Assembly: GCA_007132505.1 (NCBI GenBank)
Contig: SLOM01000149.1
Coordinates: 1 to 33,531, forward strand
Direction: 5' to 3'
Source: Candidatus Sumerlaeota bacterium
GTDB taxonomy: Bacteria > Sumerlaeota > Sumerlaeia > SLMS01
Length of the DNA: 33,531 bases
Each line of letters begins with the position of its first letter. Positions within the stretch are counted from its first letter, which is position 1. The notes under the pieces were generated by a model that was given only the letters and a program-made list of their open reading frames with translations, was not told where the DNA came from and did not search any database. Positions 8,408 through 13,346 of this stretch are shown here, piece after piece. Both the position numbers and the translations under genes were made by a program.

Positions 8408-8497
8408 CTTGGCCGTTACTCTTGCCAAGCTGCCGGTCGAGAGGATTAAATCGGGTCGAAAGCACGATTTCCCATCATGACGGGGGCGAGGTTTCCA

Positions 8498-9331
8498 ATG
8501 ACGATTCGAGCAGCAGCGGCCGCCATGTTTGTTTTCGCAGCATTCGGAATCGCAACTGCATCCCTGCCGCTGTACCAGACCCAGTTCGACGCCCCCACGT
8601 TCACGGCGGGTGACAGCGTTGACGGTGTCGAAGGCTGGCAGGTTCTGAGCCCTCCGGCCACAGTCGCTGCCGGAGGTGCGGCGGTTGGCAACCAATTCGT
8701 CCAGCTCGGCAGCGGTGCGATCCTCGACCGCGCCTTCACGGGCACGCAGGGCGAGGACACGCTCTGGGTGCAGGCGTACTTCCGCGGCCGGGGCAGCAGC
8801 CAGACCCTGACCGAAATCGAGGACGAGATCGGCTTCCCCGCCAGCGCCATCCTGCACTTCAGCGAGGCGAACGGCATCGAGGCCGAGGACGGGACGGGGG
8901 ACGGCGCACCCGGCTCGGTCATCCAGGTCGGAGTGCCGCTTGGACAGGCCAACCAAACCACTTGGTACAAGATCACCGTGCGGCTCGATTTCGAGGAGAA
9001 AGCATGGCAGCTGTGGGTGAACGACGAGAGGCGGAGCGGCGAAGATGGATTCGGTTTCCGCTCCAATCAGGTCAACAACCTGAGCGGGTTCCGCCAAATG
9101 GCCCAGGGAGAGAGCGGGTTCGACGGCTTCCGCGTGGTCCTGCCCCTGCTCGGCGATGCCAACGGCGATGGCGCCATTGACGCAGCAGACCTGATGGCCG
9201 TGATAGAGTATCTGGCCGAACCGACGGGCGACCCGATCCTCCGGGGCAACGCGGACCTGACCGGCAACGGTGACGTGACCGAGGACGACCTGGACCTGCT
9301 GGCGGGCAAGCTGACCGCCATGGCCCCGTAA
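8498..9331 (+). CDS. Secreted protein with C-terminal dockerin-type calcium repeats
   Basis: A 277-residue exported protein. The ATG at 8498 was chosen because GGCGAGG lies seven bases upstream and it begins a clean signal peptide (TIRAAAAAMFVFAAFGIATA). The upstream ATG at 8477 has no ribosome site. Residues about 30-215 look like a beta-rich LamG/concanavalin-like jelly roll, with patterns such as VQLGSGAILDRAF and TTWYKITVRLDFEEKAWQLWV. The C-terminus has two dockerin type I-like EF-hand repeats, GDANGDGAIDAADL (from about 219) and GNADLTGNGDVTEDDLDLL. No cohesin gene is nearby. The binding target is unknown. Confidence 0.85.
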   Translation: MTIRAAAAAMFVFAAFGIATASLPLYQTQFDAPTFTAGDSVDGVEGWQVLSPPATVAAGGAAVGNQFVQLGSGAILDRAFTGTQGEDTLWVQAYFRGRGSSQTLTEIEDEIGFPASAILHFSEANGIEAEDGTGDGAPGSVIQVGVPLGQANQTTWYKITVRLDFEEKAWQLWVNDERRSGEDGFGFRSNQVNNLSGFRQMAQGESGFDGFRVVLPLLGDANGDGAIDAADLMAVIEYLAEPTGDPILRGNADLTGNGDVTEDDLDLLAGKLTAMAP

Positions 9332-9359
9332 GGTGCGGCCTTCCCGGCGGGACGGGATA

Positions 9360-9377
9360 TCCCCCGGCGAAGGGGGA
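9360..9377 (+). terminator. Weak stem-loop after the dockerin-repeat gene
   Basis: TCCCCC-GGCGAA-GGGGGA forms a 6-bp stem with a 6-base loop, 29 bases after the stop codon, followed by GCTTTG instead of a proper T run. It could terminate the upstream gene. The rest of the 229-base gap up to the Hsp70-kinase start shows no clear promoter. Confidence 0.35.
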
Positions 9378-9560
9378 GCTTTGCCCGGAATTATCTTTCG
9401 TTTGCGTGAATTCCGTTTGACCGGGTGGCTGGGCGGCCTTGGGGTCGCGGTGAATGGACTCTTGCCCCGGGCCACCGGGTGAACTGAATGACACGCCTGT
9501 CGGCCGGCTGGACATGTGGGAGCGTAGTGGATGGAGTAAGGGAACCACAGAACAAAGACA

Positions 9561-12500
9561 ATGATGCACGATCCCAAAATAATCGGAATTGATCTGGGGA
9601 CGACGAACTCCGTCGTCGCGATCATGGAGGGCACGGAGGCGGTCGTCATACCCAACCAGGAGGGGGCAAACAAGACCCCTTCGGTTGTGGCGTTCCTCGA
9701 CAACAACGATTGCATCGTGGGAGAGATCGCCCGCCGGCAGGCGGCGACGAATCCCTCCCGCACGATCAGCAGCATCAAGCGCCTCGTGGGTCTCCACCCC
9801 GAAGATGCGGGTGAGCTGACGGAGGCGCTCCCCTATGACGTGGTCGAGCACGAGGGTGCCCTGCTGGTGGACGTGGACGGGTTCGGCTACACGCCGGAGC
9901 AAATCAGCGGACTGGTGCTCAAGAAGCTCAAGGAATCCGCGGAGGTCTACCTCGGGGAGGAGGTCCGGCAGGCGGTCATCACCGTGCCGGCCAACTTCGA
10001 TGACAACCAGCGCTCTGCCACCATGCAGGCGGCGGAGCTGGCGGGGCTCAAGGTGCTGCGGCTGATCAACGAGCCGACGGCGGCGGCACTGGCCTATGGA
10101 CTCGGGCAAAACAGTCAGGACGAGGAAGTCGTCGCGGTTTACGACTTCGGCGGGGGTACGTTCGACATCACGCTGCTGGAGGTCGCGTCCAACGCCTTCG
10201 AGGTGTTGACGTCCACGGGGGACTCCCAGCTTGGGGGCGACGACCTGGACAACGCCCTGGTCAGCATGATCATCGAGGAGTTCGAGGACGAGCAGGGAAT
10301 TGACCTGACACTGGACCCGGTGACTCTGCGGCGGCTGAAAGAGGTGACGGAGAAGGCGAAGTGCGAGCTTTCCGTGGCCAAGGAGACGACCATCACGCTC
10401 CCGTTCATTGCGTACCGGGACAACATGCCGCTGCACCTCGAGCGCAGGCTGGCGCGTGAGGAGTTCGAGGAGATCATCGAACCGTTCGTGGAGAGAACGA
10501 TCCGCTCCTGCCAGCGGGCGCTCGACGATGCGGGGCTCTCCGCGGACGACATTGGCCGCGTCATCATGGTGGGCGGTTCCACCCGAATCCCGATGGTTCA
10601 GGAGGAGGTGGAGGCGTTCTTCGGACGGCAGCTCTTTAAGGGTCTCAACCCGGACGAAGTGGTCGCGCTGGGTGCGGCAATCCAGGGGGGCATCTTCTCG
10701 GGCAACATCGAGGAAGTGGTGCTGATGGACGTGGTGCCGCATTCGCTCGGGGTCGAGGTCAAGGACGGCCGGTTCTCCCGCATCATCGAGAAGAACGCGC
10801 CGATCCCCATCCGCGCGTCCAAGTCCTTCACCACCACCGAAGACGATCAGACCTTCGTGGCAGTGCACATCCTCCAAGGCGAATCGGAGGAGGCCGCGGA
10901 GAACCGCAGCCTCGGGAAGTTCATCCTGTCGGACATTCCCTCGATGGAGAGGGGACAGGCACGTGTAAAGGTGACGTTCTTCGTGAACGCGGACGGGGTG
11001 ATGGAAATATCCGCCGAGGAGGCCTCCGGCGCAGCGAAGAGCCTGACGATCAGCCATGCGGACCTCGACCAGCGCGAGCGGCAGATGCGCAAGCGCGCCC
11101 GTCAGCGCAAGGAACGGGAGAAGGCGTCCGCAGGAGCCGAGGCCGGGAAGGAAGCCCCCAAGCGCAAGCGGCGCACCAGAAGAGCTCCGGCAACGAGCCG
11201 GCCCGAGTCCACACCCTCATCCCCGCCGGAAGAAACACCCGCCGCAGCTGCTGACGTTCCCGCGAGCAGCGATACCGCCGCGACAAGGCACGAGGAAGTC
11301 CACTTCGACCTGCTGAGCGATACAGCCGGTGGACAACCAAAACCGCCCGAAACCAAACTGGAAGAGCAGCGCGCACCCGCCCCGGAGCCCATGGTGGGCG
11401 CCATGGAGGAGGAAACGCCCGGGGAGCCGGCGGAAGTGGAGGAGCCTGCTTCCAAGCCTGCCTCGGCACGGAGTTTCCGCAGGCCTGCGCGCTACGGGGT
11501 GCCACTCGGGGGAGGCCAGGCACCACCCCCCGAGGTGCCAGGGTTGCAGGAGCCGGAATCGTCCTCCGCTTCACCGGTGGTGGAGAGTGAGCCGGCGGTA
11601 ACCCCGCCGCCGGTGGATCAGAGTCGCAGCGGCTCCAAGTCCACGAGCAAGGCTCCTCCGCTCCGCCCGGATCCGCCCGCCACGGCGCTGAAGGAGAAAA
11701 TGGCGACACGCGATCAGCGCCTTGAATGGCCGCCCCGTGTGGCCGCGGCCTTGGAGGCGCTGGAGAATGACCCGGACGGAAAGGAGACAGCGGGGCTGTG
11801 CCGCGAGGCGCTGGCGGCCCTGTCGGAGGAGCCATGGCACAGTGACGATCGCTACCAGGTCAGGCGGGCCCGGGTGCTCTGCCAGATCGCCACGGGAGAG
11901 GAAGAGGCGCTTGCCGAAGAGCTGGGTGCGCTGACGGCTAAGTATGGAGAGAGCAGTAGCGAGCAAATCGAGGCCCTCCACGAGCGGGCACTGGCCCGGT
12001 TTTCCCCGGCCGCGGGCCTGCGCCGGTCAAGGGCGCGGCTGCGGGAGAAGCTCGGCAAGTTGGAAGGAGCGTGCGAGGATCTGGAGTATGCCACGCGGCT
12101 CGAACCGTCCAAGGACGACCAGGACGTGCTGGAGGAGCTCTACCGCCGGCGCGTGATCGAGGCCGGCGATCCGGCCGCAAAGTTCAAGCTCGTCAAACTT
12201 TACCTGAAGACCAACCGGGTGGATCAGGCCATCGAGGTGCTGGAGGACCTGCAGCACGTTGATGCCTACGAGACGCGCGCGGTGAAGATTCTCGGCCTGT
12301 GCCACTGGCAGAAGAACCTGCATTTCCTGGCATGGCAGAAGTTCAAGCAGCTTCGCCCCACGGAGGAAATCCGGGACATCCTTTACCGGCTGGCGGGCGA
12401 CATGGAGAGCCTGGGGCAGTTGCCGAACGCCCTGGCGGTGCTGGAACACCTTGCAGAGGAAGCCCCCGAATACCGCGACGTGCGCGCACGGGTGAAGAAG

Positions 12501-13346
12501 CTGCGCTACCGCATCAAGCTCCAGCAGGAGGAGGCGAACCGCGACGACAGCGGGATGCTGCTCGATCCCCGGTTCACGATCATCGAGGAAATCAACCGGG
12601 GCTCGATGGGGATCATCTTCAAGGCACACGACAAGGTGCTGGATGAGCAGGTGGCGTTGAAGGTGCTGAACGACTACCTCTGCCAGGACCCCGGCGCCGT
12701 GGAGAGGTTCAAGCGCGAGGCAAGGGCCGCAAAACGCCTCAGTCACCCCTACATCGTGCGCATCCACGACCTGTTCGAGGCCGGGAAGAAGCGGTTCCTC
12801 TCCATGGAGTACATTGACGGAACCGACCTGAAGCGCATGATGGCGGAGCGTACAACACTGAGCGAGGAGGAGTTGATCTACTACTTCCTCCAGATCTGCG
12901 ACGCTCTGAGCTACGCCCATGGACTCGGCATCATCCACCGGGACATCAAGCCCGCCAACGTGATGATCACAGGCAAGCGGCAGGTGAAGGTGACCGATTT
13001 CGGCATCGCGAAGATCCTCAAGGGCGACGATTCCACCAAGTCCGGCACGGCAGTCATCGGCACCCCGCTCTACATGTCCCCGGAACAGGTCACAGGCGAC
13101 GGGGTGGACCAGCGCAGCGACATTTACGCGCTCGGGATCATGATGTACGAGCTGGTGAGCGGCCATCCGCCCTTCTACCTGGGGAACATCGAGTACCACC
13201 ACATTCACACGCCGCCGCCGCCACTCCCCGACCGCGTGTCGGAGAAACTCCGCCGGGTGATCATGAGGTGCGTGGCGAAGTCGCCGAAGGACCGGTTCCA
13301 GACGGTGAACGAGATCTTCGAGATGCTGGAGCCCGCGGGGCGCTGA
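9561..13346 (+). CDS. Hsp70 (DnaK-like)-TPR-Ser/Thr protein kinase fusion
   Basis: One uninterrupted 1261-residue frame. Residues 1-385 are an Hsp70 ATPase domain with DLGTTNS (11-17), YDFGGGTFD (about 194-202) and VGGSTRIP (about 337-344). Residues about 390-505 are the substrate-binding beta domain (VPHSLGVEV to DGVMEISAEEASG). The helical lid is missing. It is replaced by a basic stretch (MRKRARQRKEREK, KRKRRTRR) and a Pro/Glu/Ala-rich linker to about 715. Residues about 715-995 are TPR-like helices. Residues 1002-1261 are a Hanks-type kinase with catalytic Lys1034, HRDIKPAN (1126-) and DFG (1146-1148), GTPLYMSPEQ and DIYALGIMMYEL. There is no signal peptide or membrane helix, so it is cytosolic. 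No dnaJ or grpE lies nearby. Confidence 0.95.
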   Translation: MMHDPKIIGIDLGTTNSVVAIMEGTEAVVIPNQEGANKTPSVVAFLDNNDCIVGEIARRQAATNPSRTISSIKRLVGLHPEDAGELTEALPYDVVEHEGALLVDVDGFGYTPEQISGLVLKKLKESAEVYLGEEVRQAVITVPANFDDNQRSATMQAAELAGLKVLRLINEPTAAALAYGLGQNSQDEEVVAVYDFGGGTFDITLLEVASNAFEVLTSTGDSQLGGDDLDNALVSMIIEEFEDEQGIDLTLDPVTLRRLKEVTEKAKCELSVAKETTITLPFIAYRDNMPLHLERRLAREEFEEIIEPFVERTIRSCQRALDDAGLSADDIGRVIMVGGSTRIPMVQEEVEAFFGRQLFKGLNPDEVVALGAAIQGGIFSGNIEEVVLMDVVPHSLGVEVKDGRFSRIIEKNAPIPIRASKSFTTTEDDQTFVAVHILQGESEEAAENRSLGKFILSDIPSMERGQARVKVTFFVNADGVMEISAEEASGAAKSLTISHADLDQRERQMRKRARQRKEREKASAGAEAGKEAPKRKRRTRRAPATSRPESTPSSPPEETPAAAADVPASSDTAATRHEEVHFDLLSDTAGGQPKPPETKLEEQRAPAPEPMVGAMEEETPGEPAEVEEPASKPASARSFRRPARYGVPLGGGQAPPPEVPGLQEPESSSASPVVESEPAVTPPPVDQSRSGSKSTSKAPPLRPDPPATALKEKMATRDQRLEWPPRVAAALEALENDPDGKETAGLCREALAALSEEPWHSDDRYQVRRARVLCQIATGEEEALAEELGALTAKYGESSSEQIEALHERALARFSPAAGLRRSRARLREKLGKLEGACEDLEYATRLEPSKDDQDVLEELYRRRVIEAGDPAAKFKLVKLYLKTNRVDQAIEVLEDLQHVDAYETRAVKILGLCHWQKNLHFLAWQKFKQLRPTEEIRDILYRLAGDMESLGQLPNALAVLEHLAEEAPEYRDVRARVKKLRYRIKLQQEEANRDDSGMLLDPRFTIIEEINRGSMGIIFKAHDKVLDEQVALKVLNDYLCQDPGAVERFKREARAAKRLSHPYIVRIHDLFEAGKKRFLSMEYIDGTDLKRMMAERTTLSEEELIYYFLQICDALSYAHGLGIIHRDIKPANVMITGKRQVKVTDFGIAKILKGDDSTKSGTAVIGTPLYMSPEQVTGDGVDQRSDIYALGIMMYELVSGHPPFYLGNIEYHHIHTPPPPLPDRVSEKLRRVIMRCVAKSPKDRFQTVNEIFEMLEPAGR

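Follow-up and report, generated by a model that had tools for sequence, protein, structure and literature searches.

Organization of the Fusion Gene

The window (33,531 nucleotides of contig SLOM01000149.1, from a Candidatus Sumerlaeota bacterium) contains an open reading frame of 1,261 codons that starts at an ATG and has no internal stop in the ORF list. The encoded protein consists of an Hsp70 ATPase domain and substrate-binding beta domain (together aa 5–500), a disordered linker, a TPR alpha-solenoid and a Hanks-type Ser/Thr kinase (table 1). Pfam matches HSP70 at aa 7–532 (E = 3.8e-182, 607 bits) and Pkinase at aa 1006–1247 (E = 1.1e-55, 189 bits), and weak TPR matches fall between the two domains at aa 803–901. 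The protein has no transmembrane segment (maximum 19-residue hydropathy of 1.15), which rules out a membrane receptor. A 661-aa open frame runs antisense to the Hsp70 part (9072–11057, − strand); such a frame is typical of GC-rich coding DNA, and it shows no sign of being a gene.

No description of an Hsp70-TPR-kinase protein was found in the open-access full-text literature, which supports the sequence-only reading in its view that the architecture is uncharacterized. Two Sumerlaeota genome papers (PMC8092238 and PMC10866078) do not mention the fusion in their main text.

Table 1. Features of the Hsp70-TPR-kinase fusion gene, with positions in the window
Feature	Position	Strand	Basis
Hsp70-TPR-Ser/Thr kinase fusion gene, 1261 aa	9561..13346	+	ORF; Pfam; single orthologous frames in 28/40 Sumerlaeota genomes
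Hsp70 nucleotide-binding domain (NBD), aa 5–385	9573..10715	+	Pfam; phmmer against PDB; residue map on E. coli DnaK
Hsp70 interdomain linker, aa 386–392 (D390 is the equivalent of D393)	10716..10736	+	Alignment to E. coli DnaK
Hsp70 substrate-binding beta domain (SBD-beta), aa 393–500	10737..11060	+	Pfam; residue map
Low-complexity linker in the lid position	11061..11720	+	Alignment; composition; lid search
TPR-type alpha-solenoid, about aa 725–998	11733..12554	+	Pfam TPR; AF2 model; conserved block
Hanks-type Ser/Thr kinase domain, aa 1003–1252	12567..13316	+	Pfam; Foldseek; residue invariance in 25–27 orthologs

An Hsp70 without a Lid

A phmmer search against the PDB matched DnaK and mitochondrial Hsp70 to aa 6–523 of the fusion protein (E about 1e-147). 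The DnaK residues D8, T11, K70, E171, D194, T199, and D201 correspond to D11, T14, K73, E171, D195, T200, and D202 in the fusion, and these ATPase residues are invariant in 26–27 out of 27 aligned orthologous frames, with a single truncated frame as the sole exception. The allosteric switch (P143/R151, DnaK numbering here and below), the J-domain contact R167, the interdomain linker residue L391 and the SBD-beta pocket residues F426 and V436 are likewise invariant among the 27 frames, and the position of D393 in the interdomain linker is occupied by D in 24 and by E in three of them. Within the arch of the substrate-binding domain, the position of M404 is K in 14 frames (including the window protein) and E in nine, and the position of A429 is T in all 27.

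The sequence-only reading had described a complete Hsp70 ATPase and SBD-beta. Both are present but the Hsp70 half is not whole because the helical SBD-alpha lid is absent: neither phmmer nor blastp detected it in any of the 27 frames, where a low-complexity linker takes its place, and a retained lid was rejected as undetectable. Since the lid is gone and M404 is mostly changed to K or E, client binding may be weak or specialized. Residue conservation predicts that the lidless Hsp70 is ATPase-competent and, with its allosteric switch intact and its arch polar, it would resemble a transient reader rather than a holdase. A complete and separate DnaK gene is present in most fusion-bearing genomes (including the window genome), and housekeeping folding therefore need not explain the fusion. 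The fusion protein passes the threshold of the NCBIfam DnaK equivalog PRK00290 (662 bits, cut-off 648), so that automatic annotation may label the gene DnaK and hide the kinase, and it scores below the cut-off of TIGR02350 (650 against 822). An AF2 model of the Hsp70 part built from ten sequences was poor and was set aside.

Linker, TPR Solenoid, and Kinase

The linker of the window protein is basic at first (net charge of +11 at aa 500–545) and then acidic and rich in Pro, Ala, Glu, and Ser. Across the orthologs it is mostly basic at its beginning and variable in both length (about 120–270 aa in most members) and sequence, with a Ser/Thr/Pro content of 19–40% and no strongly conserved site.

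Helical repeats between the Hsp70 and the kinase, as proposed from the sequence, were recovered both as the weak Pfam matches and in an AF2 model of aa 722–1261, in which about 15 helices make up a purely helical solenoid (mostly pLDDT 80–94) and one long helix leads from the solenoid into the kinase. The kinase half of the model is poor because only ten sequences were used, and the model does not show a reliable docking of the domains. The TPR segment adjoining the kinase is conserved (FKLVKLxLK..LGLCxWQKNxxxLAWQKFKxL..YRDV). The TPR junction recurs in a 741-aa frame (L048, G019:C48), where it is closely related to the TPR of the fusion; this frame lacks a kinase but carries two CxxC motifs that resemble zinc ribbons.

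The kinase of the window protein contains K1034, E1053, HRD at 1126–1128, and DFG at 1146–1148 (the Lys, HRD and DFG positions had been correctly assigned before) and the activation loop TKSGTAVIGTPLYMSPEQ. The Gly loop, the VAIK Lys, the alpha-C Glu, HRD, DFG, APE, and the Arg of subdomain XI are invariant in the orthologs that cover them, except for one change of DFG to DLG. Judged by its motifs the kinase is complete and is predicted to catalyze phosphotransfer. Despite the poor model of this half, the best Foldseek match is PknB of Mycobacterium tuberculosis (about 36% identity). The kinase matches NCBIfam NF033483 with 303 bits, below the cut-off of 450, and no PASTA repeats were identified in the fusion by Pfam.

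Conservation and Origin

The fusion is kept by almost the whole of the little-known phylum Sumerlaeota. A total of 28 out of 40 genomes contain it in one frame (G000–G010, G012–G016, G019, G021, G026–G034, and G039), among them a one-contig genome (G015) and a member of another class of the Sumerlaeota (G039); two of these frames run off the contig inside the kinase (G026 and G028) and two start at a contig end within the Hsp70 (G004 and G006). The Hsp70 half runs off a contig end in four genomes (G011, G018, G020, and G025), and a matching TPR-kinase half lies at the start of another contig in G018 and G020. In G035 the fusion is frameshifted inside the SBD and not at a domain border, giving frames of 466 and 783 aa (L062/L087, G035:C58) that represent either real decay or an assembly error. 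The fusion was not detected in seven of the 40 genomes (G017, G022, G023, G024, G036, G037, and G038), three of which (G017, G022, and G036) are over 90% complete. A contig scan identified nine relatives, most of them titled Candidatus Sumerlaeota or Sumerlaeia, that all share the domain order in one frame with 54–81% identity over the full length; they are largely genomes from the whole-genome search and were not counted twice.

The window genome is a draft of 303 contigs, which would fit an artifact in the form of an assembly join, a frameshift read-through or an internal start yielding two proteins from a single frame, but such an artifact is barely credible. Because 28 genomes, a one-contig genome and a member of another class among them, contain the same frame, the fusion is not an assembly join; the orthologs are moreover similar over their full length. 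Two proteins via an internal start were ruled out, as a search of the fusion frames for a conserved start of this kind that has a Shine-Dalgarno-like site found none. Separate genes in relatives were not found either: apart from contig breaks and the G035 frameshift, the two halves are separate genes in no genome examined. The single open frame described by the sequence-only reading is confirmed, and the frameshift, the assembly join and the separate genes in close relatives that it had named as grounds against the fusion were not found.

Between the two closest members (one pair, NG86), dN/dS is 0.10 for the NBD, 0.12 for SBD-beta, 0.27 for the linker, 0.16 for the TPR, and 0.05 for the kinase, and the low values in the NBD, SBD-beta, and kinase indicate that both enzymes are under purifying selection. 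All fusions group in one clade in the Hsp70-domain tree (support 97/91) and in the kinase-domain tree (support 93/79), and the well-supported subgroups of the two trees largely agree, pointing to a shared history of the two halves and to one ancient fusion before the split of the two sampled classes.

A profile of the SBD was used to search 193 genomes and gave 32 matches to Sumerlaeota fusions with an E of 2.8e-53 or better, followed after a gap by an ordinary 611-aa Hsp70 at 1.6e-47. Scans with the full Hsp70 model identified no Hsp70-kinase frame in 64 outside genomes. Inspection of twelve longer or unusual outside Hsp70 frames revealed no kinase in any of them, the second set of 38 genomes among the 64 contained no Hsp70 frame over 826 aa, and there was no match on plasmids (TPR query) or viral contigs. 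Independent Hsp70-kinase fusions may exist elsewhere, since about 90 outside genomes were covered by the SBD profile alone and the outside families were represented by one or two genomes each.

Related Architectures

The same genomes, and also other phyla, contain relatives of the TPR-kinase half that have other N-termini. They include proteins of about 1400–1700 aa with a propeller, a TM segment, TPR, and kinase (L046, L047, and L093), proteins in which repeats or a PQQ-like propeller precede TPR and kinase (L092, L094, and L099), and a kinase with TPR only (L097). One profile (A4) detects the fusion as well as its propeller/TPR/PQQ-like paralogs, which share the homologous TPR junction block adjoining the kinase, and the kinases of L092–L099 are 41–55% identical to that of the window protein. 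In contrast to the fusion with its Hsp70, these proteins carry a propeller or repeats at the N-terminus, and several of them look like membrane proteins. Since the N-terminal domains of the relatives are sensor-like, Hsp70 occupies the slot of a sensor domain. The paralogous frame L046 (G000:C187:1500-8500) encodes 1697 aa with a beta-propeller-like N-terminus, a TM segment, a long TPR array, and a kinase. Most Sumerlaeota genomes contain homologs of it, and so does at least one further phylum (L093).

The fusion shares the NBD, the interdomain linker, and SBD-beta with E. coli DnaK, including the catalytic and allosteric residues, but differs in the missing lid, the charged or polar arch, and the appended linker, TPR, and kinase. 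It has the kinase domain of the PknB-type PASTA kinases (PknB/Stk1 type) but neither their TM segment nor their PASTA repeats, and its N-terminal input would be Hsp70 plus TPR. Other bacterial Hsp70 fusions (G066, G085, and G166; L100–L107) also join Hsp70 to further modules in long frames but those inspected contain no kinase. Among them are two uncharacterized Hsp70 frames from a 9-Mb genome whose N-terminal parts are long and Pro-rich or PilZ-like (L101 and L106, G066) and a long frame with repeats, Hsp70, and an apparent trypsin-like protease domain at the C-terminus (L104, G085). In eukaryotes, Hsp70 controls stress kinases in the BiP-PERK/IRE1 and HRI-Hsp70 systems; in these systems chaperone and kinase are distinct proteins, whereas the Sumerlaeota fusion joins the two covalently. 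Where chaperones control stress kinases, the control is usually transient and involves several proteins.

Possible Function

Given the TPR-kinase family context, Hsp70 as input and kinase as output is the best reading, a step that we infer. The protein would then be a cytoplasmic sensor kinase with the lidless Hsp70 as input, the TPR as spacer or scaffold and the PknB-like kinase as output, which we regard as nearly an even prospect. The Hsp70 half would bind exposed hydrophobic segments and/or cycle between ATP and ADP states driven by a J-protein; the binding or change of state would alter the conformation, oligomeric state or localization of the TPR-kinase half, which would switch phosphorylation on or off and thereby give a proteotoxic-stress signal. 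We infer that the ligand is unfolded protein, that the state of the Hsp70 controls the kinase, and that the outcome is a protein quality control response. Counting against this reading are the missing lid and charged arch, the model without reliable domain docking, the absence of a conserved gene neighbor, and the seven Sumerlaeota genomes in which no fusion was detected.

Two couplings had been suggested from the sequence, recruitment of clients to the kinase and gating of the kinase by the chaperone, and comparative anatomy favors the gating or sensor version because homologous TPR-kinases carry sensor-like N-terminal domains and because the missing lid and the charged arch argue against strong client-holding. 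If Hsp70 served to bring its partners, or proteins that are unfolded or nascent, to the kinase for phosphorylation as a mark, the kinase would not need to be regulated by Hsp70. The intact catalytic residues of both enzymes agree with such a client-targeting role, the long flexible linker suits a tether better than rigid coupling, and the TPR could serve as an additional client or partner site; the role is nevertheless somewhat unlikely, as the missing lid and charged arch lead to an expected short residence time of clients and the homologous kinases use N-termini of the sensor type.

Control might also run in the opposite direction, with the kinase acting in cis on the Hsp70, on the linker, or on the TPR by phosphorylation, so that signal perception by the TPR-kinase tunes a specialized chaperone. 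The Ser/Thr/Pro-rich linker and the mostly kept Thr/Ser positions of the activation loop are compatible with this, and the related TPR-kinases suggest that the TPR-kinase unit is a self-standing signaling module. However, the Ser/Thr positions of the linker are unconserved in the alignment and a lidless Hsp70 would make a poor dedicated chaperone, and we consider this direction of control decidedly unlikely. The invariant ATPase residues and SBD pocket exceed the needs of a mere docking scaffold, in which Hsp70 would mainly serve to localize the kinase through contacts with J-proteins, with the DnaK system, or with the surface of an aggregate, using ATP cycling for release only; the invariant J-contact R167 and the mostly kept D393 would fit such a scaffold, which is quite improbable overall.

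For the sensor kinase, a broader claim can be put forward tentatively: Hsp70 may be the covalent, ATP-cycled sensor of a Ser/Thr kinase across the phylum, converting unfolded-protein load directly into phosphorylation. The chaperone may thus serve as the built-in sensor of a signaling kinase in Sumerlaeota cells and, if true, this would add a Ser/Thr-kinase route to bacterial protein-stress signaling beside the heat-shock sigma factors. A single-chain, ancient, and phylum-conserved version would make the Hsp70 cycle as an allosteric kinase input directly testable with one purified protein.

Gene Neighborhood

Synteny around the fusion is limited to close relatives, and no conserved gene neighbor that gives a pathway context was found. 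Directly upstream of the fusion, the window encodes a protein that looks secreted and contains a type I dockerin domain (8477–9331). Several close relatives (L009, L010, L011, and L015) likewise have a dockerin gene next to the fusion, and in L011 a cohesin-domain protein is encoded downstream of the fusion.
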